A DNA stretch of 64,000 nucleotides from Boothiomyces macroporosus (lineage: Eukaryota > Chytridiomycota > Chytridiomycetes > Rhizophydiales > Terramycetaceae), in the NCBI GenBank assembly GCA_027604185.1, contig JADGKB010000005.1, positions 1-64,000 of the forward strand, read 5' to 3'. Below are positions 15,473 through 64,000 of the stretch, piece by piece (within the stretch, counting starts at the first letter, position 1; the number at the start of each line of letters is the position of its first letter). Both the position numbers and the translations under genes were made by a program. The notes under the pieces are model-generated. The model saw nothing but the letters and a program-made list of their open reading frames with translations. It had not been told where the DNA came from and made no database searches.

Positions 15473-15489
15473 GAAAAATTTCTATCCAT
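15469..15489 (-). promoter_or_regulatory. Upstream ORF overlapping kinase copy 4 start (ATGA)
   Basis: Six codons beginning ATGGATAGA, in the context ACAATGG, end in a TGA overlapping the kinase ATG. Same spacing as in copies 2 and 3. Confidence 0.55.
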
Positions 15490-20136: not shown

Positions 20137-22197
<2,061 letters not shown>

Positions 22198-26357: not shown

Positions 26358-26442
26358 ACACAGATTTGATTTCAAGTACTAGGTTACGATCAATTTCTAC
26401 TTGCCAGTCTGATCAATGAAAATATGTTTATTGATGAATAAG

Positions 26443-27591: not shown

Positions 27592-27597
27592 AGTATA

Positions 27598-35728: not shown

Positions 35729-35944
35729 TAAAATCATTGGAATAAAAAGACCTCGTACGTTGAATTACTAGTAAAACACAATATTTGAGGATTACAGTCC
35801 CGTCTGTAGAACGAATGGTAAAACTCAAAGCATCCATGCGCGTAGCAGTTACTAGTATTAAAATCATAGCAACTGCAAGACAATCATCATCCTTGATATG
35901 TGGCAAAAAGTCACGCTCCAAAGTTTTCAAAAAAAGCAATCAGA

Positions 35945-37603: not shown

Positions 37604-40500
37604 ATGTCTTCGAAAGGGTCAGCGATGCGCAAGACTACAGATAAGCCAAAAAAGAAAATGGCGGTTACAAACTCAGGTTTGGATACAGAGGCAACTTCTA
37701 AAAGCCAAGAGCAAAGGAATTCAGGAAACAGACCATCTTCATCTAGAACAAATGAAATTCCAATGACTTCAGAGTCGGATATTTCCAAAGAAGATAATCC
37801 AATTTATGATAGTCCTAAACAGGAGCATCAAGAATCTTCAAATAGAAACCCCATTGAAAACGACAAAGAAGCAAATGAATATCAAAAGCTTAGAGAACAA
37901 ACGGAATTGGTCGAGGAGAATGTAGCTATTGGAGAGGCAGAAGTGCTGCGAAGTAAAGAAATCGCATTCATGATGAGACAGAACGAAATGGCAATGTCCA
38001 ACTTGGTTACAGCCCATGTAATATATACTAACCCAGAATATTGATTTACAAAAAATGAAGCAATTGTACGAACGTACTTTGGCTGCAAGACGCGAAAGAA
38101 AAATCAATAAGCGAGAGACGAGAAAGACAATCAGAGGGGCGAAAAAGAGAGATTTGATTATTCAACAACAGGAAAAATCTGCATTGGCAGCAGCTAGAGT
38201 AAAAGAAACTATTGCAGAGAAGCGATTAGCTTTTGACCAACTGAATGCCCATATGCACGAGGTACACGATATCCAACGGGATAACTTGGTGCGATCACAA
38301 GATAGAAGGATGGCCTATGAAAAATTCATTTGTGATTTGGAAACAAGGTCGTTAAAAGTACCGATTCTCTAACAAAGCCTGAAGTACGAAGCACAATCCT
38401 GAAAAAGCTGCAGGTAAGACATACACACCAAGGTCACCTCAACAAAATCATCAATGACAATCTAAGAGAGTTTCAGTTACTTGAATTGCAACACATCAAG
38501 GAAAAATTTGAATTGGATATGGTGTCGTTTGATGAAGTTGGAAACAAGAAAATTGTCCATGAAAATCGACTGGCTGACATGCGCTTGAGACACATGAATG
38601 AGATACACGAGGAAAAAGAGAATGTGATGATCAAGAAGGAGGCTGCTAAAGAAGTAGAGCTGCAGAGCAAGTACGATAGGGAAATTAGGAAGCTTCAAAA
38701 CGAGCAAAAAATGGAAAGAAAGCAGTTGAGAGCAAAGCAGTTGGAAAAGTAATAAAAAACTAAACGCAGATTGGGTGCAAAGGCTGGAAATAATGTTGGT
38801 TCTAAAGCTGGTTCGGCTCCTGGATCAAAAGGTGGATCTAAAATTGGATCTCGAATAGGATCAAAAGCCGGCTCGATACAAGGTTCTCGATTAGGGTCAG
38901 TAGGAAATTCAGCCCCGTTATCTAGAGATGATTTTACAACCCATGATGTAGTCACTGACGCTACTACCAATAAAGCAACCTTGCAGCAAGGACTGATGGC
39001 CTTACTCAGCGAAGTTGCAGATGAACCAGACACTGAAGAAGTCGATATCGAAAATGGAAGCAAGTACCCTCGATCAGTTCAACTTTTGATGAGCAAACAT
39101 CGTAGGGAAATTGCAGAATTGGAAAAAGAAATCAAGAACGAATTGAACGACTGTTTCCTTTCTTATGAAGTAAAACTGTCTGATCTGGAAGCTGCGCAGC
39201 AATCAGCATGCGAGTTATTACTGGCACAGCAAAATAGTCTGGTAGAGGAAATGAGGGAATCCCAGGAAAAAGAAATCAAAATGGAAGAAACCATGCATGA
39301 TAATGAAATGAAAATGCTTGTTGAACGAAGAATGCTGACTAGTGTTTTGAGTTCTGTTTCAGATGGAATTATCAATATTACACCAAAAGGAATCGTTACT
39401 AGGTTCAACAAGGCTGCTGAAGTCATTTTCCAATGGAAAGCATCTGAAATACTTGGACAGAATGTTTCCTTACTGATGGAAGATGCAACTGCTAGTAAGC
39501 ACGATGAATATATAAATACATATCTCAACACTGGCATTGCAAAGGTAGTCAATTCAGGAAGAAGAGTCCAAGGAAAGAGAAAAGACGGCAGTGTGTTTAC
39601 GATGCATTTGTCACTAAGTGAACTAAAGGAAGGCGAAACTCATTTGTTTACTGGAATAGTCCATGACTTGACCGAAGAAGTATTCTTTATTTTACATAGC
39701 TTGCTGAAGAAGAAAGACAAAAAGCTATTGAAACTGCTAAAAATGCAGAGCTGGAGGCATTCGCCAAGAAATTGGATGTTGAATCAAAGAAGTGTGACGA
39801 CTTACTAAGACAAATCCTACCAGCTTCTGTTTCTGAAGCACTGATGAATGGACAACAAGTGGAACCTCAGCATTTCGCCGCTGCGTCAGTATTCTACTTT
39901 GATTTGGTCGGCTTCACAACAATTTCAGCTCAAGTTTCCCCACTAGAGATTGTTGGACTGTTGAACGACTTGTACGAGCAATTTGATAATGTTATTGCTA
40001 ATTATGATGCATACAAAGTCGAAACAATTGGCGATTCGTACATGATTGCGTCAGGTGTGCCCAATGTCATTGAAAACCATGCTTGTGAGTTGGCCAAGAT
40101 GGCTTTGCATTTGCTGGAAGTAGCTAAACGTTGGGTATACAAGCCCAATCCAAACATTAAAATCAGGTTGCGAATGGGTATCAACAGTGGCCCAGTGATT
40201 GCTGGTGTGGTGGGAACCAAGATGCCTAGGTACTGCTTGTTTGGAGAAACTTGTATGATTGCGTCTAAAATGGAATCTTCAGGGTCTCGTAATTATAATT
40301 AACGTAGCAATGAGAATACACGTCAGTGCTTCTACCCACGCTCTCCTAAGTAAAGACGAGACTTTTAGAATGACGCGAAGAGATGAAGTGGAGCTCAAAG
40401 TAATTCTTTGTAACTCTAGGGCAAAGGCATTGTCACTACATATTGGCTGGACTCCAAAGATGGGTTCGATCCGCTAGCAGAAGAAAACACTACTCAATAA
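37604..40500 (+). CDS. PAS-domain class III guanylyl cyclase with long coiled coil
   Basis: Seven exons (introns at 38018, 38358, 38749, 39680, 40289 and 40400) encode 925 aa. Residues ~60-365 are Lys/Glu/Arg-rich and coiled-coil. Residues ~370-415 are a Gly-Ser repeat (GSKAGSAPGSKGGSKIGS...). A second coiled coil leads to a PAS domain at ~558-672 (VSDGIINITPKGIVTRFN...RKDGSVFTM). The cyclase domain follows: metal-binding D740 (FYFDLVGFT) and D784 (VETIGDSYM), and guanine-selecting E780 and C851 (PRYCLFG). In the next motif the family's VNTASR reads CMIASK, so the transition-state Asn and Arg are M858 and K862. The protein has no membrane helix. It would make cGMP in the cytosol or on the flagellar apparatus if active; the substitutions leave that open. 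Confidence 0.9.
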
Positions 40501-40631
40501 ATAGAAATAAAGGTACCATAAGAACACATTTCAAGGCGTATGAAATAATGGCTTTGAGCCTCTACAAAATGAGGCGTATTTTTTCTTCTCCATTTCCTGT
40601 CACAAACAAAAATCACAGTCACAACAATAAT

Positions 40632-41503
40632 ATGGACGTATGACATTTCTGACTTTAGTTCCAGATAAAGACTGATCTCCCGCAACAAACGATTTCGGTA
40701 CTTGGTTTTCTAACAACAGGCAAGTTCCGTTTTAATCATAGGTAATGAATACTTGATCATAGGTAGCAATTAGTTAATAAAGGTATGGGTGCAGCTAGCA
40801 AGGTTTGCTCTAGATCAAGTGCATGTGGATCTCGTTGGTAGACAAACGCAATTGCATGTACATCCGCAAACCCACATGGACGGACTGGTACGGCAGCTAA
40901 TTCATGACGATGCCTTTAGAGACGAAACTGCAAACTTGGGAACAGCTAAAATTAGAGTATTTACTAGATTAGTATTGGATAATGGAAGGCATGCTCCCAT
41001 TGAAGAGCTGGAGCCGTACAACCTTGTCGATGGGATGGGGCAGAACGGAACCATGCCCCTGATAGTAGTCGCACCACCAAGAAACAATCTATCGTTTGGA
41101 GAAGAAATGGAGTCCTTAGCCTACTCGCAGAATGCCCAATATACAATGGTATGTTTTGCTAATGTAGCCCTACATGGTCCAGCCTCTCAGACATTCAGTA
41201 ATTTAAACTAATGTAGCTGGGACTTGCAATGCCGCCTTATGAAGAGTTTGGAGACTCGGATTCCAAACCAAGGAGAAAGAAGCTGGGGGCAAATTCACCA
41301 AACTCCAAATCAATTGAAGAGAAGAGGAAAGCAGACAGAATCAGACAGCGCAAATGCAGAGCACGAAAAAAGGTAACGAAAATGTAACGCAGCAATTGAA
41401 GATGCAGCAGGAGTTGCAGCAGGGATTGACAGATATGCAAAATGGAATGGCCAATTTCAATCAACAGATGCAATTACCAGCTGATATTCACGAGTTTAAA
41501 TAA
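40632..41503 (+). CDS. Crinkler-like N-terminal module plus basic-region (bZIP-like) tail
   Basis: Proposed model: ATG at 40632, introns 40638-40658, 40698-40782 (85 nt, see separate entry), 41149-41167, 41198-41216 and 41373-41392, giving 235 aa in frame. The first ~125 residues (QVHVDLVGRQTQLHVHPQ, then KIRVFTRLVLDNG, EELEPYNLVDGMGQNG and MPLIVVAPP) follow the pattern of the ubiquitin-like header of Crinkler (CRN) proteins, which are known from chytrids. The C-terminal part carries a basic region, EEKRKADRIRQRKCRARKK, resembling a bZIP DNA-binding segment (CRxRKK) with Asp in place of the invariant Asn. A Gln-rich amphipathic stretch follows instead of a clear leucine zipper. Nuclear action is likely. 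The Crinkler comparison is pattern-based; the start codon is the weakest point. Confidence 0.5.
40698..40782 (+). other. Stack of four back-to-back intron-like units
   Basis: Four consecutive segments each have the size and ends of an intron of this genome: 40698-40719 (GTACTTGG...CTAACAACAG), 40720-40741 (GCAAGTT...TTAATCATAG), 40742-40762 (GTAATGAA...TTGATCATAG) and 40763-40782 (GTAGCAATTAGTTAATAAAG). There is no exon sequence between them. Of all combinations of units that could be removed, only removing all four (85 nt) gives an open frame into the downstream exon. Confidence 0.6.
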
Positions 41504-41629
41504 ATAATTGTGCCTTGTAACGCTTAATTAGACCAAACTAGCCCTATCCGTAGTAATACCTCTGTCCTTTACAAGCTTTTCTGCGTACCATAAAACGTGC
41601 TAAACAATCTATTTTTTTTGATATCAAAA

Positions 41630-42625
41630 ATGCAAGCAATTTTCGTTGGGACAGGAACAAGTGGGAACGTACCATACATTTCCTGCTTAATCGAAGAACC
41701 AGTTACTTGTAAAGTATGCAAATCAGCCCTCATTACTTCTGCACCACCAACAGAATTATCACTTCCACTAATAAGCAAAAACAGAAGGAGAAATACCAGT
41801 TGTCTAGTACGTATACCTCATCCAGACGGCCGTATGCGGTACGATTAATTAATGCAGAAATATTCTAATTGATTGTGGAAAGACGTTTTATGAATCCGCA
41901 TTGACGTGGTTCACACAGTACAGGATTAGGAATTTAGACGGTGTGATACTCACTCATGGGCATGCGGATGCGATGCTAGGTTGGGGTTTACTAATGCAGG
42001 TTTGGATGATTTGAGACAGTGGACAATGGCGCCAGGGAATAAACCTGGTTTACAAGCTACAGTGAATATTTATTTGGATGAGGCTACAATGAAAGTAGTA
42101 AGCGGTGCGTTTCCTTATATGGTTGATACTGCTAAAGCGACTGGGAGTGGAGAAGTTGCATCTTTGCAATTCCACTTGATTAGTCAAACTGAGCCGTTTG
42201 AGATTGATGGGATTAAAATACAGCCATTTAAAGGTACTTTAAGCTAATGTAGTGGAGCACGGTAAAGTTAAAGGTGGGGAGCCGTACTATGCCCTTGGCT
42301 TTAGAATTAACGACTTCTCGTATGTGTCAGATACAAACAAGATACCGCCAGAAGGTATTGAAATCATCAAGGGATCTAATACCATTATAATGGATGCTCT
42401 GAGACGTAATTGATTTTGATTGTAGCCACTGAACATTCTTCCCATTTTTCATTCAAACAAGCATTTGATACTCTAGAATCACTATTACCAGATAGTGGAA
42501 AGGGATACTTTGTAGGTTTAACGCATGATGTTGAGCATGAGGATATTCTTCAATGGATTAAAGATCAAAAGGGAACCAAGAATATTACCTGCGCGTATGA
42601 CGGTTTAATGATTGACATGGAATAA
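41630..42625 (+). CDS. Metallo-beta-lactamase-fold hydrolase (SPCC777.06c/PhnP-like)
   Basis: Five exons, 305 aa; introns of 19-20 nt, including one directly behind the metal-binding motif. The N-terminus [13 protein letters not shown] and the motif [18 protein letters not shown] (HxHxD) are typical of the Lactamase_B_2 group. Further metal ligands are likely in [15 protein letters not shown] and TEHSSHFSF (last His). A cysteine pair (CKVCKSA) near residue 30 is shared with eukaryotic proteins of this type. Related proteins occur in plants and yeasts as uncharacterised hydrolases; bacterial PhnP cleaves cyclic phosphodiesters. Cytosolic location is likely. All four introns are required for the catalytic motifs to be in one frame. 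Confidence 0.9.
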
Positions 42626-42650: not shown

Positions 42651-43706
42651 TTAAGATTGGTTGTCGGCTGTAGCTTGAAGGCGAAAGAAAAAGTACTTTA
42701 GAGCGTATGAAGAGTTTGTCCAATAGTACAAATCGAAAACTACTTTTACAACCAACAACAGAAGCCTGTTTTGATTAAAGAATTCATAAAAGATGATATA
42801 CCCCAGCATCATCAAGCTAATCAAAAAGTATAGCCACCAAGCAGTAGATTTAATCAAGTACCCTAATGTCTTTACTCTATATTCCGTCTGATCGCGTTTG
42901 GAAATCTTTTTTGGCAACACAGATTGAGATGCAGACACGGATTGGTCTGTCGTGCCTAAATTGGATACATTTGATTTTTTCTCTTTCAATTTGGATAATA
43001 CGATAGTTCCAAAACTAAGAACGATGGGGAAAGAAACGAACAGCGCTACAAATCCATACAACGCGTAAAAGCATCTTCTCCATAAGTTGTAAGACTCTAA
43101 ATTGGTATTTAGTCCTATGTTAGAAAAAAGTACCCCAAGTTTGCCATAGCGAGGCGAATATAGTGAGGATTATGAGGTTGACTAACCTAACGTATTTGAG
43201 AATCTTTCCAACATCCAATTTCATTCCATTGAAACTTATTTTATCATAAAGCGAAGCACTTCCAGCCATATCCACAAGCATAAACACAAATAAACTAAGT
43301 GTGATTGCTCCCAACAGGAAAAACAGATAATCAAAGCTAATTGACACCTTGAGAACTGCTTCAATGTCCTCGTTGGTATATTCAGTCGGATTGAAAGCAA
43401 ATTTTGCAGTTGTGGAAGCTACTATTAGCAAGAATTACTGTTGAATGAATAGATTGATCGAAATATCAGCATTACAGGAGCTAATAGACATATTGTATCC
43501 ATCCTCGACCAAATTGTCTTTATAGATTTGGTTCCTAACCCGTTCCGTAATAACTGAACAATCAATATTCCAATATATCCAAGTGCGGATATAATATACA
43601 ATGATCCAGTGATATAATCAATTATTTGGAAGGGGAAGGCAAACTGTCCGCATCCTGCATAATTAACATGAAAATCACAGATTCCAAATAGAAAAGAGTC
43701 TGGCAT
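42651..43706 (-). CDS. Seven-transmembrane protein, copy A
   Basis: Three exons (introns of 20 and 19 nt) give 338 aa. A short N-terminus (FGICDFHVNYAGCG) with two Cys is followed by seven hydrophobic segments: IIDYITGSLYIISALGYIGI, ICLLAPVMLIFRSIYSF, YLFFLLGAITLSLFVFMLV, VNLIILTIFASLWQTWG, YGFVALFVSFPIVLSFG, WWLYFLISLMMLGYIIFY and LVVKVVFDLYYW. A Ser/Lys-rich loop lies between segments 5 and 6. It is a tandem duplicate of the gene at 44084-45225, with closely matching blocks (DYITGSLYI, GLGTK, IWSRMDT, ALKYFF/VLKYFF). The topology resembles a receptor, but no GPCR motif (DRY, NPxxY, retinal lysine) is seen. Function unknown. Confidence 0.85.
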
Positions 43707-44083
43707 TTGGGCTGGAACTCTGCAAATCTAATTATTGGGAAACGTCACCTTTTAAATTTCATTTGGAAAACGTGATGCCTATGGATATAGTAAGATATCT
43801 ATTTGTAATCCCATTGCTTGTCTTGAGTGGCAAAATTTCAACGATTCGAATTAAAGAATGCCAACCATCGAACGAATAGCCTGTTATAGTAGGGTATTTT
43901 TTGAGCTACAGATAGATGAAATGATCATTCATAAGAGAAGTTTTAAGCAGTACGAACCGTCAAACATGAACCTTAGGGTGTATGCAAGTCATTGAATCAC
44001 TAGTTACGTCAAATTCAATGATTATCGTGAATTTGAATAGGATAAAAGACAGATACAACCTTTAAACATCTTAACAATAGAAT
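43707..44083. other. Intergenic region between the seven-TM genes
   Basis: About 375 bases, promoter of copy A and 3' end of copy B; nothing else visible. Confidence 0.5.
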
Positions 44084-45225
44084 CTATTTCTTATCAGCAT
44101 TGTGGCTCTGGTCGCTATTTCGACTGGCTTCAACAGTATTTGCGTCATCCATATTCCATACCCTAGTGAAAAAGTACTTTAAAACATAAGAAGAGTTGGA
44201 CCAGAAATAGAAATCACACAGAATCTTGGCAACCAGCAGCACAGAACTGTTGTTGGAAAAATAGGTGTAGATAATCAAGTAGCAATACATCATAATTCCA
44301 AGCAGCATGTAGAGCCAATAAGCTGTGCTTTGAATTAGATATGCAAGAGCCCTCATTTTGGAATTCGCTGCCCCTTTTTTGGCAACACTTTTTCTACCAA
44401 CAGACACTTTAGTTCTGATTGACTGATTAGTTAAAGTTTGGGTTCGTAATACAGAGCTTGGTCGAGTTACACTGTTTCTTTCTACCTTTTCTCCAACTTT
44501 TTCATTCAGCTTTTTCATGACTACATTCCCAAATGTCAAGACGATGGGAAACGAGATGAATAACGCAGCACTTCCATACACGCCGTAAAGTGTGTTTCTC
44601 CACTTGTTGTAGGATTGGATATCATCCAGACCTGTGTCAATCTTTTCATACCAAAAGTACACCATAACGCGGTGATGACAGTTAAAACTGTCATTGTCGT
44701 TAATCTAATAATCTTCATGATCTTGCCAATATTCAACTCTCTACCAAATACTTGCATCTTATCGTACAAAGTCGCGTTTCCTGCTAAATCTACCAATGAA
44801 AAGACAAATATGCTTGTAGTCACACCGCCAATTAGCATAAACAAATAGTCAAATGCGATTGATACTTTCAGAGTGCTTTCGATATCATAGTTTGTGTACC
44901 CGGAGCCGCCGTTTGCATAATTCGCAGTTCTTGAAGCTAATGTCAAGTAATTGATACTACTGAAAGAAAACCCCGCACGGACAGCTTGACAAATAGGAAT
45001 TAATGATCCAGCAGTGTCCATTCGACTCCAAATCTTCTTTAACGGTTTCGTACCAAGTCCTAGTTTTTTGAGTTGCAAGTAGATGACCAGATAGTAGGTC
45101 AATGCAGTTGTAATGTACAAGCTCCCAGTGATATAATCAATGACCTTAAAAACGTGAGCGGAATCTCCACAGCCAGCATAATTGATATGAAAATCACAGA
45201 CATCAAATAGGAATGAGTGCTGCAT
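44084..45225 (-). CDS. Seven-transmembrane protein, copy B
   Basis: Two exons (20-nt intron placed after ALWCTFG) give 373 aa. It has the same seven-segment plan as copy A but a longer, basic third loop and C-terminal tail (RNSVTRPSSVLRTQTLTNQ, KVSVGRKSVAKK), which suggest cytosolic regulatory sites. The intron of copy A after the second segment is absent here: the paralogous position reads straight through (SSINYLTLASRTANY). So either copy A gained it or copy B lost it after duplication. Family not recognised. Confidence 0.85.
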
Positions 45226-45537
45226 TAAGAAAAGATTGTTGGAAAATTACAGTGACGTAAGCACGAATGTCGAGTTGGACAACAAGAATAATTTCTATTT
45301 GGGAAATATTATGATTAATTTTTATATCTTGTACAGAAATGGTTTGTTTCGAGATATCGACTTTATAAACTGTGAATACGAGCGTGTTTTTCGAATTCGT
45401 TATTTCCACACCATTGTCTTTAAAATGTAGTAATCCTAGAAGTGATTCTCGCTACGAGCGCTTGGGTTGTGAATATTTCGTACACCACTACACCTCAAAT
45501 AACAAAAGACAAACATAAATACAATCTTCTTTATTAA
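45226..45537. other. Intergenic region
   Basis: About 310 bases. An open frame on the plus strand (45236-45430) lacks an ATG start and homologous features. Confidence 0.45.
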
Positions 45538-47625
45538 TCAAACTTCTGACTCGACAGAATTACTTCTTTGCATAGGTAACAATCCATTCTTGTTTAAAAG
45601 ATTGACAAAATCTTGGATTATCTGCGCTTGAGTTTCAACTCTCTGTTTTAGTTTGGAGATTTTTTCTGAATCTGGTAAATCTTCAGGAATTGGAACAGTG
45701 GTTTGGGCTAACAGTGGATGAGCTTGAGCAAGCAATTCTTGTGGAGTGGCATCAATTATCTTGAATCTGCTCTTTTTGTCTAGATTAATTGGAAAATACC
45801 AGTCGATGCGATCGAACTAACTGTAGCCTGATTTGGGGACATTGACATTGGGTTGTCAGTAATCACTGTAAACTTTCTTGGGATTTTCGGGCCTTCAGTT
45901 GCAGGCATCACTGGCGAAGTTTTTGTGCTTGGTGGCAAGTTTTGGAAAGCAAATCTACCCGCTTTTCTTTCAAGAGCTAATTGTCAATCATTAGTTACAG
46001 TTATAGTTCTCGGAAATATTTGTTTCAGACGATCCTGTCAATGTTTGGGTAAGGGGAAGATTTGGAAGGACTTGAGTTGAAGAGCTTGTACCAGTTACAC
46101 TATTTGCATTTGAAGACAAATTAGTAACACTGGCTTGAGAATTGACACTGAATCTCCCCTTCTTGACTTCAGCAGGTGGTGGCACTTCTGGCTGAGGCTC
46201 TGGTTTAGTGGCAGGAGCATTAGGATTGTCAACCACAAATCTACTTTTTCTTGGAAGAGAAGAATCTTGAGAGCCTTTATGCTCAGCTGGTTCTTTAATA
46301 TCTGGAATTAAAAATATCGTACCACCAAATGAAACCGTTTTTGGTCTGTCCATGGACTCTGTATTTGCAGGATCATGTGTAAGACGATCTTTAATCAAAG
46401 TTTCTGCAGACTGGTCTTTCTTTTCTGGATATGGAAGTGATTTTTCACCAGCAGACTTGTCGTCAAAGTCCCATTCGTCTCCGGTCTTTTCGGCAGTTAG
46501 CTCTTCCAAATTGATTTGCGACTGAGTTCTATGCTGTCTTTCTGTAATTGGAGTAAGATCTTTTAAAAGGGTTCCGACCAAGTATTGCGGTTTCTTTGCA
46601 GTTTTGAAGAACGGATGGGTTAATAGCTTTTCTGCGGTTGGTCTCTTTGTAGGATCTTTTTGGAGACACGAATCAATCATATCTTTAAATGATTTTGAAT
46701 ATTTGTGGACAGTGTTTTCACGATCCAGGGTAGGAGGACTGTTTTGCAAAGTCAACATCAACACTTTCTAATGTTAAAGAAATGTACCATTGGAGGATAC
46801 TTTGCATAAGGAGCGTGCCCTTTTGCGAGTTCTAGTGCTGTAATACCAAAACTCCAAATATCAGCTTTGAAATCATACCCAGACTGATCCATAACCTCTA
46901 TCATTAAACAGCAAATCACCTGGTGCCATCCAACAAGGAGTCCCAACAAAAGTTTTTCTGCTAGCGTTTCTGTTTCCATTTTCACTTAGAGATGAAGAAA
47001 CTCCAAAATCAGCAAGCTGGACTAAACCATCGTTATTCACCAACAAGTTTCCAGCTTTAATATCACGGTGAATCAACCCTTGAGCGTGCAAATACTCCAG
47101 CCCTTGTAAAACTTGCTTTAAAATGGTCGCAATCACAGCTTCTTCCATTCCATTCTTGTAAGCAGTCTTCATAATATCTAATCCAGATCCTGCAGACAAA
47201 AACGGTGTCACGATGAATAACTTGCTTCCGTTTACAAATGATCCATATACAGGTAATAAATTCGGGTGCTTGGATAGAGTCATAATCTGCAGTTCACGCT
47301 ACATTAGTATAAAGTACTCGCAATTCATCAATTTGATTACGTTCAAATAAATCCAAATCTATAACTTTGATACTAACTGGCAAGTTTTGTAATTTATAAT
47401 TTGCTAGGTATACAGTGGCAGATGAGCCTTGTCCTGGTGTTAATATTGCGTACCGATAACTTGTTTTAATTCATAGTCTTCTGGGTTCATTGAAAACCCT
47501 TCAGTTGGCACGGTTGTATTTGAAGCTGTTCGTCGCATAGTTCCGTTTAACCTCACTCCAATCCCTCCTAGCTTGGCTTCTATAGCGTCCTTTGCTGTTT
47601 CAGCTATTGACTGCCTTCGTTCCAT
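45538..47625 (-). CDS. OSR1/SPAK (Fray)-type STE20 kinase with repeated RFxV motifs
   Basis: Seven exons, 654 aa; introns of 19-22 nt. After a ~45-residue leader, the kinase domain shows [44 protein letters not shown] and the subgroup signature [16 protein letters not shown], with [17 protein letters not shown] and the [14 protein letters not shown] motif typical of OSR1/SPAK. Animal members are activated by WNK kinases and control cation-chloride cotransport. The tail lacks an evident CCT domain but repeats a short basic motif ([41 protein letters not shown]) and ends in a coiled coil ([22 protein letters not shown]). The motifs look like the RFx[V/I] peptides that CCT domains bind. All catalytic residues are present. 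Confidence 0.92.
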
Positions 47626-48017
47626 TTTATGTGCGGATTGTAAAGTTCAAAAAATAAAAGGCAGCCACTTTCACGTTTTGCGTAATCATGAATACGAAAA
47701 ATGCTTGGTGGAAACTAGGACTAGGAAACCATGAAAAATGTTGCCGCTTCTCAATGGCGATGAATGCCGATTGAGTTTCCAGTTTTCTTTTATTATTTGT
47801 GGGTATATTCATATCGTGTTCCCTGGCTGACTTGACCGTTGATTTAGCACAAGTAAAAGGACAAAGTCCGGCGGAGCACATTCTTTTAAGAAGCATTTTG
47901 AACCAATTTGGGCCCAAGTTTCCATTTCTTTGTTATGAATTGATCCTTAACATTAAAAGATACCTGCATCTCTTTTTATAATACCAACCGATTGATAAGA
48001 TGCACAGATCTTTATTA
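47626..48017. other. Intergenic region
   Basis: About 390 bases: promoter of the OSR1-like kinase and 3' end of the aminotransferase. Short frames on both strands show no coding features. Confidence 0.45.
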
Positions 48018-49373
48018 TTAGAGCAACTCTGCCAATCTGCGACATGCTTCATCCATTTCCTCTTCAGTGGCATAAGAATAAGAAGCCCGAACATACCCAG
48101 TGTCCCTCTTGTTTGGAAAGAATTCCTAAATTAAAAATATTTACCACTCCAGGCACAAGCAGTATCTTTGCTTCTCTTGCTTTGTTTGTAATCAAGTCAA
48201 AGGAATCATTGATTGGGAGCTTAATCCATACAAACATTCCTGCTTCAGGCACAGTCCATTCCGCCTTTCCTTTCAGATGGGTGTCCAAGCTGTGGAGGAA
48301 TGCGTCTCTTCTCTTTTCATAAAACTGTGCTACACTTCGAGTATGTTCAAGGAATCCATTTACACCCCATTTGTTTAAAACAGTATGAACCAACAGCTGA
48401 CTAACACCAGAAGGATGAAGGTTAGTGGCCATTCCATGCAATACAATTCGCTCTACCAATGCAGGAGGTCCAGACACCCATCCTACTCTCATACCTCCAG
48501 ATAAAATCTTTGACACGGAATCAAATCTTAGTACTCTGCCATCACAATCTAGAGAGAAATAGCTAGGCGTTAAGGGTGTCTTGAATTGCAAATAATAGTA
48601 TGGATCATCCTAACATTAATTTCAATCACTTCAAGAATGATAAGGTTGAATTTCTGTGCAATTTCGTATACTTTCTTTTTTCTTTCATAAATAGTAGACA
48701 AGCCAGTAGGGTTACCAGCAGTCGGGACAGTGTAGAGCACTTTTGGCCGAGTAGCGATATCTGGCCAATTTAAAAGGGCTTCTTCAAGTGCATCGGGTTG
48801 AATACCTTGGTTATCAACCGGGATTTCAAGAAACTTTGCTCCCAAAGGTCTTAGGAAAGCTAAAATCCCGACATAAGTAGGTGATTCAATCAAAATCGTG
48901 TCACCTGGGTTGATCAATGCCTCCATTGCCTTCGTAATCAAATCTTGACTTCCATTTCCGACGCATATATCATAGGATTGGTAGGGTGGATTGTGTACTT
49001 GTTCCTGCAATTGTCTTAGCCAGTCCACTAACTGCGAATCACCTGGAGTAGAGCCATATTGAAGCGCTTTATCCAACACCTTGTCTTTCAATTCAATGGT
49101 TTCTCCAGTCTTTAGTTTAACCGATATTGATTCAAAAGGGAAAGTTTGAGTGTTTGGAAGACCACCTCCAAGCGAAATCATTCCTGGAATTGAAAGATAT
49201 TTCTGCATGGCTCTTATCGCCGAATGCTTGCGTAGTTTGCTGTTCTCTGAAAAGAATTGCGAATAATCCATTACTTGCTTAAAAGTCGAAAATCTTTTCA
49301 TCTCTTCAGCTAACTGACTCAAATCGCGTGATAATTTTTTATGAACTTGAGGTTTTGAACCTGCTGCGGTCAT
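48018..49373 (-). CDS. ARO8: Aromatic/2-aminoadipate aminotransferase (Aro8 / KAT II type)
   Basis: Three exons (introns of 20 and 19 nt) give 438 aa. Fold-type I PLP-enzyme motifs occur in order: GMISLGGGLPNTQTFPF, YGSTPGDSQLVDWL, CVGNGSQDLITKA, VLYTVPTAGNPTG, LEDDPYYYL (an intron interrupts this block) and FDSVSKILSGGMRVGWVSGP, with the Schiff-base lysine in SVSK. The C-terminal arginine block (GYVRASYSYATEEEMDEAC) binds the substrate carboxylate. Yeast Aro8 and animal KAT II transaminate aromatic amino acids, 2-aminoadipate or kynurenine. No mitochondrial presequence is obvious. The upstream frame is open but lacks ATG, so the start at 49373 is preferred. Confidence 0.93.
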
Positions 49374-49740: not shown

Positions 49741-50018
49741 ATGGTATGTGCAAACAACAATTCAACCAATGGAACAGGACTAATAATAGGATTCCGCAAA
49801 AGCTTCAGCACCAAAGAATGCTCGTGTTACTAAAGTTTTAGGACGTACCGGATCACGGTAATTATATATTTAATTATAGCGGTGGTGTCACTCAAGTCAG
49901 AGTTGAAATCATGGAAGAAGGAAACCGTTCAATCATCCGTAACGTTAAAGGCCCAGTCCGTGAAGGAGATATTTTAGTTCTATTGGAATCTGAACGTGAA
50001 GCTAGACGCCTTCGTTAA
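49741..50018 (+). CDS. RPS28: Cytosolic ribosomal protein eS28
   Basis: Three exons encode 69 aa. The first exon is only the ATG; it is followed by a 46-nt intron (49744-49789), more than twice the local norm, and the second intron (49858-49879) is 22 nt. The product is plainly eS28: [36 protein letters not shown] and the C-terminus [12 protein letters not shown]. eS28 sits near the mRNA exit channel of the small subunit. The start is fixed because the exon after the 46-nt intron begins with GATTCC (Asp-Ser), as in other eS28 proteins. Confidence 0.97.
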
Positions 50019-50324: not shown

Positions 50325-53242
50325 ATGGCGACGCACACCATTCTAGTCACTATATATGAGGGTACACGATGAAATAATGTAGGGAAAAACTTTGTGAAGC
50401 GTCCAGACCAAGTGTATATTCAGTGCAGGTTCAACAACGAAATCCTGACAACAGATCCAGTACCACAAACCAAATCACCAATATTTGATACAGAGCTGGC
50501 TTGGGATATCGAGCATAAACAGCTCTCCTTCTTGCGGTCACAAAGAGGTACTTTTTCACTCACTCAGCGACTTTGAAATTACAAGTATACTCGATAAACA
50601 GTTATTCTCAGCGCGAACTTTTGGGTTACATTATTCTAGATTTACGTGCAGCAAGCGGGCAAGCACCTTATCCAGAGAAATGGTATACCTTGATCAATAC
50701 CAAAAACGCTTCCCCGTTTAAACCGCAACTTAAACTTTCGTTTGCTGTTTCTAGTGCGAAAACTGCTTTTATACTTGAACCAAAGAGTCCGAATTCAAAA
50801 GTTAACAGTCCTTCTATTAGGCCAAAAGTACATTTAACCAGCGAAGGGTACTATCAAGTTGGCCCTTTTGACCAGGAACAGCATACTTATACTCTTTGGA
50901 TAACAATCGCTTTTGCACAACATTTGCTATTGATCAAGCCAGAACCTAGCCAGATTGATTTCTATTTCTATTATACGCTGCTTGGGGCCGATATTCAAAC
51001 TGGACGGTTTCAAAAACTCTCTGATCCAAACTTTCCAGCAGAGCGTGTTTCTATTAGATTTAGAGCCTTTCCTTCGGATCTATCTCTGTTATTGGTTCAA
51101 ATCAACAAGCTTGTTATTTATTTGTGTCAAGGAAGCGTTGTTTTAGGTGTGTGTGAAGTATCTATGCAGACACTCGCCAAAAAGGTTGATCAGGATGATG
51201 TAGTATTTGAAGAGAACGTATATCCACTAGTAGGTACCAAGATGGGTGTTGATTTTGGAAGTGATGGAATTGTGCCGGGAATTGGTGTTTCTCTAGCATT
51301 GAAAAGAGGGGAATTTGAAGGAGCGGGTATCGTTAGGGAGAGTAATGCATTTGAAAGTGTTCCGCAAACTCCAAAACTACACGTTCCAAAACCTGATATT
51401 CCAAAAGATGTTGCACACAACACCGTGATTAATACTGATAAGCCAATTACACCTGTTGATATTGCCCGGGCATCACAGACTAGACAAGTTGTTGAAAAAA
51501 CTGCAAACGATCAAAATATTCTGCCAGAAGGTCAATCCAACACTACTACCCGTTCTAGTCAACTTTCAAAAACAATTGTAGAAAATCAAATATTGACTGA
51601 AGCAAACACAGAAAGCAAAAATCCATTAGAGTCCAGTAGTGCTCCAGTATCACTTCAAAATCCGTTAATTCCAGATTCTGTTCCAAGACCAAATCCTAAT
51701 CTTTTACAGAGAAATGAAGATGAAGAATTTAAAAGTAGAGCAGTACACAACTATGCAATGACAAGTAATGAGCTTTTTGGAAATACCCTTGGTGAATGGC
51801 ACCAGTATAGATTTTCGATTGAACTACGGTCTATCAGAGATTTCAAACTGAAATCGGCTCAAGTTTTCCTACAATATACATATGCGCCTTTTGGAAGTTC
51901 TAATCCCACTTCAACCCATCCTGTTGTTCAAATTGTGCAAAACGAAGGAGAATTTCTACTTCCTCATTCGTTTTGTGCATTTGAATTTGCAATGCTCCAA
52001 GATCAACTAGAAACTGCTCTAGAAACTGTTCCTTTACTTGTAAAGGTATTTCACAAAGATCCACACCAAAAAAATATCTTGTTGGGTGAATGCTCAATAG
52101 AGCTGTTCCAGATACTTCATGCCTCTAAAACTGGTAACGGAGCCCATAAATTACAAACATTGGATGTGTTCACGCCGATAATTTCATCTGGGATAGTTTC
52201 TGAAAAATACAAGAGCTTTGGGGAACTTCGAACAATATTTTCCTTGGAAGATTTTGGGCAAATAGATATGGACGAATTTGGAGGAAAAACAAAAGACGGT
52301 GGTAAAGTTGAATTAGATAAGCGATATGCGCATCAGTCAAACAATGATATTCATTCTACAATTCAATATGAAACTGCAGTAGAGTTGGAATTCTGGAAAC
52401 ACACCGAGCAAGAAAAGTTTTTGCTAGAGCTTGCAGAGAAGGAGCGACAGCTGGAACTCAAGTATGAAAGAGAGTATGAAGCTAGAGAACAAGAACGCGA
52501 AGCGATTATGCATGCTAAACTGGTTGAATATAAGGACAAAGTAGCTAAACTTGGAGAATTAACCAATAAGCTGCAAGAAAGAGAAATGCTAATCAAAAAA
52601 GCCGAAAGTGACCTGGCGCTACGATCCAAACAGCTTGAAATTGATACTCAAAGGCAACTGGATTCCCAAAAAGATGCCAATAAACGACTGGCTGAATCGT
52701 TGGCGCATGCTACGAAACTGTCGCAACAAAAACTGGATGATGCGGAAAAGAGTGCAAAGAATTATGAAAAAGAACGAGATTTATTACGAGCAAGAGTGCT
52801 TGAACTCGAAGTTGAAAACGCCAAACTCAAATCTGACAAGAGCAGTACGCTAATGATACAGCAGTTGCAACAAGAAAAAGAACTGCTTGAACAAAGATGT
52901 AAGCGCCTTGTTACATCTCGCCATGAATTGAAAAAGAAATACAAGCAAGTAGTACAGCTATATCAAGATGCTAAAACCAAAGTGCTATCTGAAAGCAGTG
53001 ATACAAAGTCTCAACTTACTCAACTTACAAAGCAAGTTAAAGAGCTGCAAGAAGTCAAAGTAGAATTGCCAAAGGAACCTCAACAAGAAAACAAGGAAAA
53101 TATAATGGATGATAGTACTAGAGAAGCTATAGAGCGTATCAAAACCGAAAAAGCAATGCTGCTAGAGTCTGGGTTGTACAAAGAAACCGATCCGCTAATC
53201 AAAGAATTCAACACCAACCTAACTCTTTTGATGACAAAATAA
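50325..53242 (+). CDS. CEP120: CEP120-like centrosomal protein
   Basis: Three exons (introns 50362-50382 and 50548-50567) give 958 aa, close to human CEP120. The N-terminal C2 domain matches CEP120 in detail: TILVTIYEGKNFVKRP, LTTDPVPQTKSPIFDTELAW, then LLGYIILDLRAA and EKWYTLINTK...PFKPQL. A second C2-like domain lies around 90-230 and a third around 390-520 (WHQYRFSIELRSIRDFKLKSAQVFLQYTY). From ~600 to the end the protein is coiled coil (ELEFWKHTEQEKFLLELAEKE...). CEP120 works with TALPID3 and C2CD3 in centriole elongation and appendage assembly. Its presence argues that the organism builds centriole/kinetosome-based flagella. The stop is nine bases from the convergent Hsp20 stop. Confidence 0.93.
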
Positions 53243-55960: not shown

Positions 55961-56827
55961 TTATTTGGATATTACTTGAACAGGAGTGTGTAAACTATAT
56001 TTATGGCCATCAACAACATGTACATTTACTACTAGCGAATGGCGGATGCTGATATAATTGCCTTTGACATCTGGCTCGACGAACCCTTCAAGTTGCAGGA
56101 TTTCCAAAGGTACACAAACAGTTCCTTCCTTTATGTCAAACTCCTCTGGAAGCAGATCAATTTCAAGAAGCTTTCGCTCATCCTTTTTTACAACATTCAT
56201 TGCGGGATCCCAACTGTGTGGTCGGTACCTTACCTTGAACCCAGTTTCCTCAACCAACGAAAAACTTATTTTTGTGATTTTCTGACTGCCAACAATAACC
56301 AGCTTTGGCCGGAATGGGCTGATTAGAAACTGGATATCTTCTTCAGAGTGGATAAACAAAATCCTTGATCCTTCAACAGAAAACAACAAGTTTGATGGAT
56401 TGGCGAATAGTTGGTGGTTCATTAACAAATTGTGTTTGAAAACTGAAGGCGTGATTACAGCCAGTTTTGCAGTACATATATTGATCTTATTAAAGTAGAA
56501 TTCCACCTTGTATTTGATGCTGGCATTCTTTAGTTTTACCGAGCACAACAATCCCTCTGGTGAAATCAATTGCCTTAGTTGCTGGTTATTCTCCACTAGA
56601 TTGATCTTGTATTTCCTATCCAGAAACATGTGTTTTTCAGCTTTCTTGTTGATTACCGTTTCAGTCCCTATTAATCTGAATGAAAATGAACCACAAGTAT
56701 TGGAATTGATCTGAAATTCAAAGAAAGCGGGCTCTTTTCTTGAAAATACAATTTCTGGTACTATGTTTACACTAATTTGAGTTTCACCAGATAAATATAC
56801 ATGTCTTGAATTTTTGAATAGAGTCAT
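55961..56827 (-). CDS. Arrestin-like protein, paralogue 3
   Basis: Intronless, 288 aa, closest to paralogue 1 (HVYLSGETQISVNI, ISPEGLLCSVKLKNASIKYKV, FANPSNLLFSVEGSRIL, PHSWDPAMNVVKKDE). The 73-base gap to paralogue 2 leaves little room for a promoter, so paralogue 2 may depend on a very compact one. Same fold remarks as for paralogue 1. All three lack introns, unlike most genes in this window, which could reflect an origin through a retro-copied ancestor or a family that never carried them. Confidence 0.72.
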   Translation of the reverse strand: MTLFKNSRHVYLSGETQISVNIVPEIVFSRKEPAFFEFQINSNTCGSFSFRLIGTETVINKKAEKHMFLDRKYKINLVENNQQLRQLISPEGLLCSVKLKNASIKYKVEFYFNKINICTAKLAVITPSVFKHNLLMNHQLFANPSNLLFSVEGSRILFIHSEEDIQFLISPFRPKLVIVGSQKITKISFSLVEETGFKVRYRPHSWDPAMNVVKKDERKLLEIDLLPEEFDIKEGTVCVPLEILQLEGFVEPDVKGNYISIRHSLVVNVHVVDGHKYSLHTPVQVISK

Positions 56828-57873: not shown

Positions 57874-58708
57874 TTATTGTGAAGCAAGTAAACGTTCACG
57901 GCGACGGTCACGTTCTTCAGAGATAGAGAGTTTGACACCCTTTCCTTTTGGAAGAGAGATTAATGGCTTGTTGCCTTGTCCAATAACAAAGACGTTTCCG
58001 ATACGGGTAGCAAAGGTGTGGCCAAGAGCATCTTTAATGTGAACAATTTCGAAACCACCTTGGTGCTTTTCACGGTGAGTGATGACACCAATACGTCCCA
58101 TGTTGTTACCACCGGTAACATAAGCTACGTTTCCGTTATCGAATTTAACGAATTCGGTGATCTTTCCAGTTTCAATATCAATCTTGACAGTGTCGTTGAC
58201 TTTGATTGCTGGATCTGGATAACGGATGGTTCTTCCATCGTGAGTAACAGCGTATGGAATAGCTTTTTGTCCGAGTTTGACTTGCTTGACTTTGCAAAGT
58301 TTGTATTTGGCTTCTTCTTCAGTAATACGGTGAATTGCAAATCTTCCCTTAACGTCGTAAATCAAACGGAAGTTTTCTCCAGTCTTTTCGATTGAAATAA
58401 CATCTACAATTAACTAGTAATTACCCATGAATCCAGCTGGGTAAGTGATATCAGTGCGAACCTTTCCGTCGACTTTAATCAAACGTTGCATAACGATAGC
58501 TTTAGTTTCCTTGTTGGTGAGTGCATAACGAAGACGGTTACGGATGAAAACAATCAATGGAAGACATTCACGGGTCTTGTGTGGACCAGCAGATGGCTTT
58601 GGTGCCCAAGTACCAGTGAGTTTGTCCAACATCCAGTGCTTTGGAGCATTTAAACGCTTCATGTGCTTCTTTGGTCCTCTTGCCTACTGTTATTGAATGA
58701 CTTACCAT
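57874..58708 (-). CDS. RPS4: Cytosolic ribosomal protein eS4
   Basis: Three exons encode 263 aa, the standard eS4 length. The first exon is the ATG alone, followed by a 22-nt intron; the second intron is 21 nt. Sequence is highly conserved: [48 protein letters not shown], the KOW-like [18 protein letters not shown] and C-terminal [18 protein letters not shown]. eS4 is a small-subunit protein. The upstream region has the CCAAT-type element shared with eS28. Confidence 0.98.
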
Positions 58709-59050: not shown

Positions 59051-59721
59051 ATGGCAGAAGCTCACTGTTCCATCTTGAAAATTTTCACTTGTCATCAGAA
59101 ACAAATGCAAATAAAAATATTTCGCCAATTCACCAGACAGCTAAAGACTGAAATTTCAAAGATTAAAAAAGGAAACATTATCAAGCACAATGACAGGCTC
59201 TACCTCGTCATGGCAGCACAGGCACGATCCCAAGGAAGAGGAGGTGCGATTCACAAATTGGATTTAAAAGACTTGAATTCAAGCTCTAAAATTACTGAGC
59301 GATTCAATGCGAATGCAAATTTGGAAACTGTTGAACTGGAACAAAAGCGATTGAACTATTTGTATACTGACGAGCAAATTATTCTGGTAGATGAAGATTA
59401 CAAAGAGTACCAAGTGCCAATAGACTTGCTTGATGGTAATTTATACTCACTGTAGCCAAAGTATTGCCGTTCCTTAATAGCGAAATGGAATTCAAAGTGG
59501 ATTTCCATGAAGACAAGGTAGTTGGATTAAAGATTCCAGACAAGACTGTAGCCAAAGTAGTAAGTAGTGGCGTAGTAAAGAATTCTACTGGTGAATCTTC
59601 AAAAGCTCAAAAGATGGCTGAATTGGAAAATGGAGTTAAAATCAGCGTTCCAGAATTTGTAAAAGATGGTGATGAAATTGTAATTGACTTGAATGAAATT
59701 TCCTATCTATCCAGAAAATAA
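59051..59721 (+). CDS. Mitochondrial elongation factor P-like protein
   Basis: Two exons (20-nt intron inside LLDAKVLPF) give 216 aa. The EF-P/eIF5A-like N domain is seen in ISKIKKGNIIKHNDRLYLVMAAQARSQGRGG, followed by FNANANLETVELEQKRLNYLYTDEQ, typical of EF-P domain 2, and a C-terminal OB fold (VKISVPEFVKDGDEIVIDL). EF-P rescues ribosomes stalled at polyproline. The N-terminal basic amphipathic stretch (MQIKIFRQFTRQLKTEI, from an internal Met at residue 19) looks like a mitochondrial presequence. At the domain I tip, where bacterial EF-P has a modified Lys or Arg, the loop reads SQGRGG. Confidence 0.9.
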
Positions 59722-60337: not shown

Positions 60338-61761
60338 TTAGTGGAATATTGGAATCCCATCTTCATCAAACTCCTGCTTCGCCCCATGAAATAGTTTGTT
60401 CTTGCATGGCCCAGAAGAATAATGAAGCAATGGATCAGCCCCAGCTAACTCATCCCCACACAAAAAACAAAAGTGACAGTTGCAAGTACAAATCATATGG
60501 TTACACCCGCTCTGTTTTTCAATCCAACTACTACAACGTGGACATTTCTGAGAGTTTTGATGCAAGTACTCTTCAGTTAGCACTCCGCTATGGTACCGCT
60601 CAACCATACTTTGCAAGTTTTCCTTGCCAAATTGTAATTCAAATGGTTCTTTATCTTCTGCATTCATGTATTCTATAATTATTTGGTCTTGTTTTTTCAT
60701 TTGACATGCTTGAGAGTAGCCGTGCCAGGTCTGATTGCAGTAAAAACAGAAACAGTAATCGCAAGCTTTACAGATTACAAGTTTCTTTTCTCCATCCAGA
60801 GTGCATGGATACTGGCATAATGGTCGAGGGCAGTAGGTAACATCTTTTCTGTCCTGCAAAGAGTGTTTGTAAAAAAGCAGGTAGTACCTATCCAATTCCT
60901 TTTCTGTAAGCAGCTTTTGCAAATCAGAATAGGGAATGTGGTGAAGTCCCTTGTTGATTGGATTTTTCAGGGATTCCTTCTTACATTCTTGATCTGGACA
61001 ACAAACCAGAGAGACTTGTCCTTGCTCTACCAAATACTTGAAGAAAGAAGTTATGCAATCCGTGCAGAATACATGCTTGCATAATTGGAACTGAAAGCAT
61101 TTGGTACCACTCTTGGACTCCATACAGATACCGCAGGTATGTTTCTTGCCTTCAAATACAGCTTTTGATTTTTCATTATTGAATTCAAGTAATCTATCAA
61201 ATATCTTGTAATTAATGTTTGGAATTTCAAGCACTGTCGATTTTGAATTTGGAATAGGCTGTTGGTTACTTTCAGGCGACTGTAGAAGACAAGACGAAGC
61301 CGCATCCTTTTCTAGTCGATTGGAATCGGTATCCAAGGTTAAATTCTGCATCTTGTCCAAGACATTCCCGAATGAATCCAAATCGACCTTCTTCAGCCAA
61401 TTAAAGTGTGTAAAAAAGTCATGCTGTAGAAAGTCAATAATTTGAAACAATACTACTGTTCGTTGCTCATCCCACCAAGAGTAGAACAAGTCATAAAGCG
61501 GTTTGAAATCTGTTATCCAACAACACTCCATTTCCAGCTGTAAATATTCGGATTCTGGATACTCGGTATTATATTTGAAATGAAGCCGGATATCGGGAAG
61601 GTAATTGATGCTGTATATTTGATTTTCAATTCTTAAATTTGTTGAAAATTCGATAGGAATTGAAAGGGTATTATCGTCTAGGAACAAATCTTCGTATATT
61701 CCCTTTGGTTAATTTTGATTACTTTTAGCGCTATAATTTCTTGCTTTTGTTCATCATTCAT
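60338..61761 (-). CDS. RNF14: RWD-RBR E3 ubiquitin ligase (RNF14/ARA54-like)
   Basis: Two exons (20-nt intron near the start) give 467 aa, the size of RNF14. An RWD domain opens the protein (KQEIIALKGIYEDLFLDD, then LPDIRLHFKYNTEYP). RING1 follows (CGICMESKSG...LCKHVFCTDCITSFF), then the IBR (VTYCPRPLCQYPC...CKACDYCFCFYC) and RING2/Rcat (CPRCSSWIEKQSGCNHMICTC). The catalytic cysteine of RBR ligases, which carries a thioester ubiquitin, is in this last block. Yeast Itt1 is the fungal counterpart; RNF14 acts on stalled translation factors with GCN1. The first exon supplies the RWD start, confirming the intron. Confidence 0.95.
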
Positions 61762-62957: not shown

Positions 62958-64000
62958 ATGCCTCCAAATTTCCGCTCAAAGACTTTAAAACCATTCAACT
63001 CTGGTGATATCAAAGTATTATTACTGGAAGGTCTAAATGCAACTGGTGTCAACATCCTCCGCAACGCTGGCTATCAAGTAGAAACACACCCTAAAGCGCT
63101 CGACGTTGAAACCTTGAAGGAAAAAATCAAGGACGTTCATGCGATTGGTATCCGTTCAAAGACCCAGTTAACCAAAGAAATATTGCAACATGCCGAAAAG
63201 TTGCGTGTTATTGGTTGTTTCTGTATTGGTACAAACCAAGTCGATTTGCAATTCGCAGCTTCAAAAGGTATTTCGGTATTCAATTCTCCTTTCAGTAACA
63301 GCAGAAGTGTAGCTGAAATGGTTATTGCTCAAATTATTGCCTTGTCCAGACAGATGGGTGATCGTAATACCGAGTTACACAACGGCATCTGGAACAAAGT
63401 CTCCTCCAACTGTCATGAAATCAGGGGAAAGAGCTTGGGAATTGTGGGATATGGGCACATTGGATCTCAGTTATCTGTCCTTGCAGATTCATTTGGTATG
63501 AAAATCTTCTTTTTCGATATTCTACAAACTATGCCTCTAGGATCAGCAGTTCCTGTGCCATCTTTGGAAGAACTGCTCTCCAAATGTGATTTCATTTCTC
63601 TGCACGTTCCAGAAACCCCGGAAACTAAAAATATGATTGGAAAAAGAGAATTTGATTTGATGAAGAAGGGAGCTGTTTTCATCAATGCTTCAAGAGGGAC
63701 TGTTGTTGATATTCCATCACTAAAGCAAGCCCTAGTTAGTGGACACTTGGCTGGTGCTGCTGTTGATGTATTCCCAGTTGAGCCATTCAAAAATGGTCCA
63801 GGATTTGAATCAGATTTGATTGGATGTCCAAATACAATCTTGACCCCTCATATTGGTAGCTCATTTTAATGTAGGTGGTTCTACTGAAGAGGCACAATCA
63901 TCTATTGGTATCGAAGTTGGATCTGCCCTTGTAAAATACATCAACACCGGCTCTACTCTAGGCTCTGTCAATTTCCCAGAAGTAGATATTAGATCACCAA
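62958..64000 (+). CDS. SER3: D-3-phosphoglycerate dehydrogenase (partial, runs off the window)
   Basis: First enzyme of serine biosynthesis, oxidising 3-phosphoglycerate with NAD. Landmarks: KVLLLEGLNATGVNIL, VIGCFCIGTNQVDL, the Rossmann motif LGIVGYGHIGSQLSVLADSFGM, FISLHVPETPETKNMI, the catalytic region VFINASRGTVVDIPSLKQAL and AAVDVFPVEP. A 19-nt intron (63856-63874) interrupts the invariant TPHIGGSTEEAQ, so exactly those 19 bases must be removed to restore it. This is the cleanest proof of ultra-short introns in the window. The C-terminal regulatory (ACT) part is beyond base 64000. Confidence 0.97.

Follow-up and report, generated by a model that had tools for sequence, protein, structure and literature searches.

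Introns of the heterotrich ciliate Stentor coeruleus are reported to be 15–16 nt long (PMC9505925). In that account they are used genome-wide in a free-living cell and have GT-AG borders, a fixed branch position, a 5-nt tail from branch to acceptor and canonical U1 and U2 pairing sequences, features that they share with the introns described below from the chytrid Boothiomyces macroporosus. They differ in that the Stentor branch A lies at position 10 rather than mostly at 14–15, and in that Stentor is described as without a strong branch consensus whereas 111 of 162 Boothiomyces introns carry YTRAY; in addition, Slu7 and Prp18, both present in Boothiomyces, are given as not detected in Stentor (Table 1 of PMC9505925). 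Mikrocytids, which are intracellular parasites, are reported to have introns of 16–17 nt, 224 in total, and 17–19 identified spliceosome proteins (PMC10245619); the narrow length range and conserved intron sequence recur in Boothiomyces, but there we found 162 introns in 336 kb alone and all tested spliceosome components except RED, and the organism is a fungus listed from soil. The chlorarachniophyte nucleomorphs have introns of an equal length range (18–21 nt) and likewise high density, described as lacking any evident motif at donor or branch and as accompanied by shrunken U1 and U5 (PMC6461891), unlike those of Boothiomyces, which have a motif and whose U1 (163 nt) and U2 (193 and 191 nt) fit their models end to end. 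Microsporidia, relatives of fungi, share short introns with Boothiomyces and differ by having few per genome and a reduced spliceosome, as summarized in PMC10245619, and the introns of Paramecium and Nyctotherus, also uniformly short and in a free nucleus, are longer (about 25 nt) and belong to ciliates (PMC5014332). For Batrachochytrium, of the same order as Boothiomyces (Rhizophydiales), 37,153 introns have been predicted (PMC5364385).

In the openly licensed papers that were searched, we found no report of such tiny introns in a chytrid or other free-living fungus. Other chytrids are not known to depart from ordinary intron lengths. B. macroporosus is classified in Terramycetaceae, Rhizophydiales, Chytridiomycota; PMC11210171 gives the source of the ex-type strain as soil on pine pollen, from which we take the fungus to be free-living. 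The DNA analysed here is a stretch of 64,000 nt from this fungus (the window), together with parts of other contigs. A reading made from the sequence of the window alone had proposed that nearly all of its introns are 19–22 nt long. Our analysis indicates that these segments are, with high probability, ordinary major-type spliceosomal introns, probably near the smallest workable size and likely common to the family, and the Boothiomyces introns are almost as short as any reported. The differences from known tiny introns that were tested are the presumed branch at position 14–15, the clear motif, the full-length U1 and U2, and the fact that Slu7 and Prp18 have been kept.

Length class of the short introns

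A simple count of GT...AG spacings made without a coding model rises weakly at 19–20 nt and shows nothing stronger, so a coding-aware finder was needed. We used a gene finder that was given codon usage, stop codons and GT...AG borders only, with a flat prior under which lengths from 10 to 100 nt were equally likely, and ran it on a 264-kb sample consisting of the window and one 10-kb stretch (positions 20,001–30,000) from each of 20 other large contigs, a non-random choice. It placed 142 of 252 GT...AG introns at 19–23 nt, with 25, 74, 20, 17 and 6 introns at 19, 20, 21, 22 and 23 nt, respectively, and 0–7 at any other length. Eight false donor/acceptor pairs gave 7–28 introns at 19–23 nt in the same 264 kb, compared with 142 for GT...AG, and the largest count at any single length was 74 for GT...AG and 16 for a decoy. 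The length peak thus appears with GT...AG and is absent for the eight other pairs; a rare GC-AG border, of which there is one example, is described below.

When lengths up to 300 nt were allowed, 97 introns fell at 19–23 nt, against 7–19 in seven decoys, and this comparison also bears on whether a longer class of true spliceosomal introns exists beside the 19–22-nt class. We regard such a second class as unlikely, since no GT-AG bin from 24 to 300 nt rose above the range of the seven decoys and the counts from 24 to 120 nt lay below it. The figures that lean the other way are a 201–300-nt bin with 50 GT-AG introns at the looser setting, above six of the seven decoys (range 41–54; at the stricter setting 26 against 23–32), and a probable 46-nt intron with donor GTATGT just after the ATG of the eS28 gene (below). 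We discounted the 24–100-nt introns called by the finder, most of which would be neighbouring genes run together, because decoys yield as many or more; some real introns may be among them. With lengths to 300 nt allowed, nearly all introns therefore lie within a narrow span under about 25 nt, with exceptions such as the likely 46-nt intron.

Excluding overlaps, 162 introns of 19–23 nt were collected from 336 kb. Of these, 37 come from the window, 101 from the ten-kb stretches and 24 from elsewhere; 19 of the 20 ten-kb stretches from other contigs had at least one short intron and the remaining stretch had none. Introns of 17 and 18 nt hardly occur (1 and 2, respectively) and those of 19 nt are frequent (31), so 19 nt acts as a floor. 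The finder is blind to 18- or 21-nt introns that lack an in-frame stop, and all 26 of the detected 21-mers contain a stop; since an in-frame stop is present in 65 of the 129 introns of 19, 20 and 22 nt, the 18- and 21-nt introns are undercounted by perhaps half.

Within the window a signal-trained model gave 82 introns (27, 39, 9 and 7 at 19, 20, 21 and 22 nt), for the majority of which the gene model is the sole basis. Four more that it missed were found by pattern or by eye: 15361–15379, 49858–49879 (in eS28), 21460–21480 (GC-AG) and 13109–13127 (GT...GG). The sequence-only reading had placed about 75; the short class is real and the count becomes 82 of 19–22 nt plus these four. Its statement that nearly all are 19–22 nt long holds within the window and beyond it, though "all" would fail on the likely 46-nt intron of eS28.

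Predicted introns in the window genes and their borders

The intron at 63856–63874 (plus strand), GTAGCTCATTTTAATGTAG, is 19 nt long, lies where that reading had put it and breaks the reading frame of a phosphoglycerate dehydrogenase (PGDH) gene that starts at 62958 and continues beyond the window. Its borders had been called certain, and the spliced protein bears this out: with the intron removed it reads ILTPHIGGSTEEAQ, and residues 7–418 align with solved PGDHs at 543.8 bits, gap-free at the junction. The protein tested has 419 residues, was also freed of a second intron at 64208–64227, beyond the window, and comes from a model trimmed by hand ahead of the next gene. The branch-like A of the 63856–63874 intron is at position 14, followed by a tail of 5 nt.

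Each of seven tandem protein kinase paralogues (6795–22200, minus strand) has three introns, whose places correspond in all seven; the homologous junctions are GEK|VAIK, M|A.A.NGD and YMK|TFCGT, and the one paralogue tested matched Pkinase at 220 bits. Introns at the first junction are 8460–8478, 10821–10840, 13109–13127, 15361–15379, 17590–17608, 19793–19811 and 22086–22104; those at the second are 8100–8121, 10439–10458, 12722–12743, 14982–15001, 17196–17215, 19409–19427 and 21716–21735; and those at the third are 7845–7864, 10184–10203, 12468–12486, 14730–14749, 16941–16960, 19155–19173 and 21460–21480. All 21 are 19–22 nt long, and 19 of them are GT-AG. The 21-nt intron at 21460–21480 is GC-AG with donor GCAAGT, and its removal restores LLR|TFCGT. 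The 19-nt intron at 13109–13127 has a GT...GG border where its paralogues end in AG; among cuts of 18–22 nt only 19 yields VAIKIINKK, and the acceptor could be either broken, in a copy under decay, or of a non-canonical kind.

A damaged copy might show just such a border, and the GT...GG intron is the one point we see in favour of explaining the short segments by translational read-through or bypass, by sequencing errors or by pseudogene damage. That explanation is most unlikely: the 162 introns include 129 of 19, 20 or 22 nt and are thus mostly not multiples of three, they share a motif, a length peak at 20 nt is not expected of errors, the segments occupy identical places in seven paralogues whose intron sequences have diverged, and Prp8, of which one copy was found, has five of them. 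Spliceosomal introns remain our reading of these segments. The five in Prp8, on another contig, are 20, 19, 21, 21 and 22 nt long, and each junction is continuous with 3–5 of 7 homologues, the others being without a clean alignment there. Once spliced, Slu7 gives a single match of 293.9 bits to the full profile in place of two exon matches (154.6 and 94.7 bits).

Other window genes agree. The eS4 gene (57874–58708, minus strand) has introns at 58404–58424 (21 nt) and, immediately after the ATG, at 58684–58705 (22 nt); after splicing, residues 1–251 of the protein, from a model whose end was trimmed by hand, are gap-free against human eS4 at 449 bits. The gene at 49741–50018 (plus strand), which we take to be eS28 from its sequence, was read directly and has a 22-nt intron at 49858–49879 and probably a 46-nt intron at 49744–49789 with donor GTATGT, so that in both ribosomal protein genes an intron (in eS28, the likely 46-nt one) directly follows the ATG. 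A cytochrome P450 gene (22775–24312, minus strand) had been singled out as the one multi-exon gene not divisible by three; this exception falls away, as removal of introns of 20, 20 and 19 nt (23381–23400, 23644–23663 and 24052–24070) gives one frame whose protein matches PF00067 at 285 bits over profile positions 13–438 of 462. An RWD-IBR (RNF14-like) gene (60338–61761, minus strand) with an intron at 61703–61722 matches PF05773 and PF01485, and a CEP120 gene (50325–53242, plus strand) with introns at 50362–50382 and 50548–50567 matches PF12416 (Cep120) at 88.9 bits in its first 321 residues. At 35094–36923 (plus strand) the model runs an upstream gene together with one for a family-2 glycosyltransferase (Alg5-like), with introns at 35262–35282, 35473–35492, 35951–35972, 36349–36368 and 36556–36575, and its second half matches PF00535 at 101 bits.

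Further introns are predicted by gene models. On the minus strand they fall in a membrane-protein-like gene (342–2527; introns 855–874, 991–1010, 1836–1854 and 2429–2449), a low-scoring model (a 21-nt intron at 26915–26935), a long model (27598–33647; 28024–28042, 29258–29277, 29962–29981, 30141–30160, 31623–31642, 31882–31900 and 32822–32840), several genes gathered into two models (42651–49373; 43115–43133, 43419–43438, 44632–44651, 45436–45455, 45529–45550, 45780–45799, 45977–45998, 46302–46322, 46768–46787, 46898–46919, 47299–47317, 47434–47453, 48126–48144 and 48610–48629) and a model that joins two similar genes (a doubtful 20-nt intron at 56049–56068). Those on the plus strand fall in a gene that we presume to be hydrolase-like (24352–26382; 25385–25404, 25547–25565 and 26067–26085, with weaker calls at 26244–26262 and 26345–26363), two short models (a 19-nt intron at 27307–27325 and a 21-nt intron at 33963–33983), two models at 37604–42625 (38018–38036, 38358–38377, 38749–38769, 39680–39699, 40289–40307, 40400–40419, 40464–40483, 40638–40658, 41149–41167, 41198–41216, 41373–41392, 41839–41857, 41918–41937, 42234–42252 and 42406–42425), and a presumably elongation-factor-P-like gene (a 20-nt intron at 59436–59455). 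Within the two models, the gene at 37604–40900 contains several of these tiny introns and resembles what we take to be a PAS plus guanylate cyclase protein.

Intron anatomy and the splicing machinery

Although no motif was used in finding the 162 introns, 111 of them contain YTRAY, against a mean of 35 and a maximum of 49 in 200 shuffles. Taking the best motif match as the presumed branch, so that its position derives from the motif alone, the branch-like A lies at position 14–15 in 115 of 162 introns and 5–6 nt from the intron end in 114 (elsewhere in the other 48). The donor is GTAA in 90 and the end is TAG in 112, and the short introns are 28.7% G+C. The earlier description of a branch point almost touching the acceptor is thus borne out. 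The 14–15 nt from donor to presumed branch is the stranger of the two spacings: for the human B complex the smallest workable separation is put at about 52 nt, and one of 35 nt abolished assembly on one substrate, according to PMC6692369.

Each intron consists of three packed signals: a donor GTA(A), then about 8–10 bases rich in A and T, and (C/T)TAA(C/T) as the presumed branch motif, whose A sits mostly at position 14–15, followed by a tail of mostly 5–6 nt to the AG. In the working that we propose, U1 would read the donor, SF1 and U2 would read the branch motif, and the donor would then pass to U6 while U2 adjoins it, with almost no spare RNA between. The acceptor would not have to be searched for, being the AG that comes a few bases after the branch, and the floor of 19 nt would follow from the usual smallest donor-to-branch distance (14) plus the usual smallest tail (5). 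We found no way for the human B-complex geometry, as given in PMC6692369, to hold a donor-to-branch distance of 14 nt; such a distance would therefore imply either a hand-off in which U1 departs no later than U2 and U6 take their places, or a B complex of another kind.

The genome encodes the major spliceosome, in that U1, U2, U6, Prp8, SF1, U2AF65, Slu7, Prp18 and Isy1 were all found. U1 scores 68.8 bits (curated cut-off 69.5), is 163 nt long, matches its model end to end and has the canonical 5' end AUACUUACCUG. Two U2 genes of 193 and 191 nt score 142 and 135 bits, also match end to end and carry the canonical GUAGUA, to which the YTRAY of the 111 introns is complementary; U6 (62 bits) carries the canonical ACAGAGA. 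The U2 genes, at C80:60682–60874 and C178:9607–9797, differ more in their 3' part and are identical in the branch-pairing stretch. Among the proteins, Prp8 (775 bits, a single copy found by the search), SF1 (115 bits), Slu7 (293.9 bits spliced), Prp18 (183 bits) and Isy1 are present, and U2AF65 gives an unspliced match of 231 bits (cut-off 310) with internal stops that are probably introns. RED_N gave no match in a genome search run without a positive control. It had been suggested that SF1, U2AF or Prp8, or their contacts, may differ here; at the level of presence and motif the components are in place and the pairing sequences of U1, U2 and U6 are canonical, so that the machinery looks ordinary as far as tested.

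This inventory weighs against removal of the segments by a non-spliceosomal route, for instance a tRNA-type or HAC1-type endonuclease and ligase. A donor-to-branch distance below the supposed human spliceosome limit (PMC6692369) would speak for such a route, which we nevertheless judge very unlikely: U1, U2, U6, Prp8, SF1, U2AF65, Slu7 and Prp18 are kept in a genome with no longer intron class above the decoy range to account otherwise for them, the borders are GT...AG with one GC-AG whose donor is GCAAGT, and the branch motif matches U2 in 111 of 162 introns.

We had predicted a loss of Slu7 and Prp18 like that of Stentor, and it was ruled out when both genes were found. PMC10711555 describes both as dispensable in yeast when branch and acceptor lie near each other; they are kept here, though most introns have a tail of 5–6 nt. 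Fixed branch position and a tail of about 5 nt, a trait of ultra-short introns, recur in Boothiomyces (115 and 114 of 162), whereas the reduced snRNAs, reduced spliceosome or undetected Slu7 and Prp18 of some such cases were not encountered, since U1 and U2 are complete and both proteins were found.

The deposited Isy1 of Boothiomyces sp. JEL0838 is without the MARN-type start (MARNEEK) seen in five of the seven other aligned proteins; of the remaining two, that of Globomyces starts MANN and one starts later. A simple pattern search found no MARN-type start in the DNA examined ahead of the B. macroporosus Isy1 gene (L046:1434–1720). A non-conserved Isy1 N-terminus has likewise been reported for Stentor. 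The altered start stays a lead, because tiny introns blur where the gene begins.

We put forward tentatively, and with slightly more doubt than belief, the idea that a free-living chytrid family recently shrank its introns from longer ancestral ones to a fixed ruler (14 nt from donor to branch, 4–7 nt from branch to acceptor) while its spliceosome stayed unreduced, with full U1 and U2 and ordinary Prp8, Slu7 and Prp18. If so, assembly would proceed without U1/U6 and U2 being some 50 nt apart, through a hand-off made directly between neighbouring stretches of RNA; Slu7 and Prp18 must serve some purpose that does not hinge on the branch-to-acceptor distance; and an altered Isy1 N-terminus, in Stentor too, would represent convergent adaptation of the active site. 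If the segments are spliced out as predicted, a seemingly ordinary fungal splicing machine handles introns far below the supposed human tolerance. In the earlier cases (ciliates, rhizarian parasites and nucleomorphs) the snRNAs or the spliceosome were reported as reduced or step-two factors went undetected, and a fungus that is related to well-studied yeasts and chytrids and has a conventional set of tested components separates tiny introns from those changes. Three questions can thereby be tested: what determines the smallest distance between donor and branch, what role Slu7 and Prp18 have when 5 nt separate branch and acceptor, and, provided that the change took place inside a single order of chytrids, how introns shrink.

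Fungal placement and probable spread in the family

Prp8 is 83% identical to that of Basidiobolus and 82% to that of Phlyctochytrium, and a quick maximum-likelihood tree of 53 Prp8 sequences places it inside Fungi, beside Phlyctochytrium (SH-aLRT 92). Rozella, considered early as a source, falls in another part of this tree, whose rows include no aphelids or mikrocytids. In a protein search one of the window kinases was 98% identical to a deposited B. macroporosus protein. In the whole assembly a universal 18-mer of 18S rRNA has no exact match, and the rDNA may be missing from it.

Short eliminated elements of ciliates have a similar length class, and one could imagine that the segments are DNA elements excised from a working copy of the genome, like those internal eliminated sequences. 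We give this the least credence of all the alternatives: the host is a chytrid, chytrids are not known to have a second nucleus, and the segments have splice-type borders and a branch motif. The claim that a free fungal genome uses spliceosomal introns of 19–22 nt throughout, and that this would be unusual, is instead supported, at the level of sequence, by the length peak, the borders, the motif and the fungal placement.

Similar kinases occur in Boothiomyces and Terramyces, which suggests a family-specific expansion, and their deposited proteins point to short introns beyond B. macroporosus. Among the 120 matches listed, four of six kinase proteins of Terramyces sp. JEL0728 have inserts at the kinase junctions and the other two drop stretches there. 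The five inserts in the deposited annotation are VFLINQ, VIFTNK, VTITNE, VSVANLQ and CVNFKAR. The first four, at phase-0 junctions, begin with V (GTN) and end with K, Q or E (NAG), and the N codon in each sets a branch A at position 14. Read from the proteins, the inserts look like unspliced introns of 18–21 nt that the annotation translated, presumably kept by the annotator because they contain no stop. Since they sit at the same kinase junctions, the short-intron trait likely spans the family.

In B. macroporosus itself the deposited models agree with ours in part, and to that extent speak against our reading: all four kinases among the matches listed (P0122, P0127, P0135 and P0136) lack a piece of the protein at one of the three junctions, the pattern expected had the annotation removed a longer intron, and P0122 and P0127 agree with our kinase models at the other two junctions. 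Of the 16 Boothiomyces and Terramyces kinase proteins compared (P0122–P0137, among the matches listed), 11 drop exon pieces or translate intron-like inserts at these three junctions and 5 do not; the public proteomes of the family are therefore probably wrong in many places.
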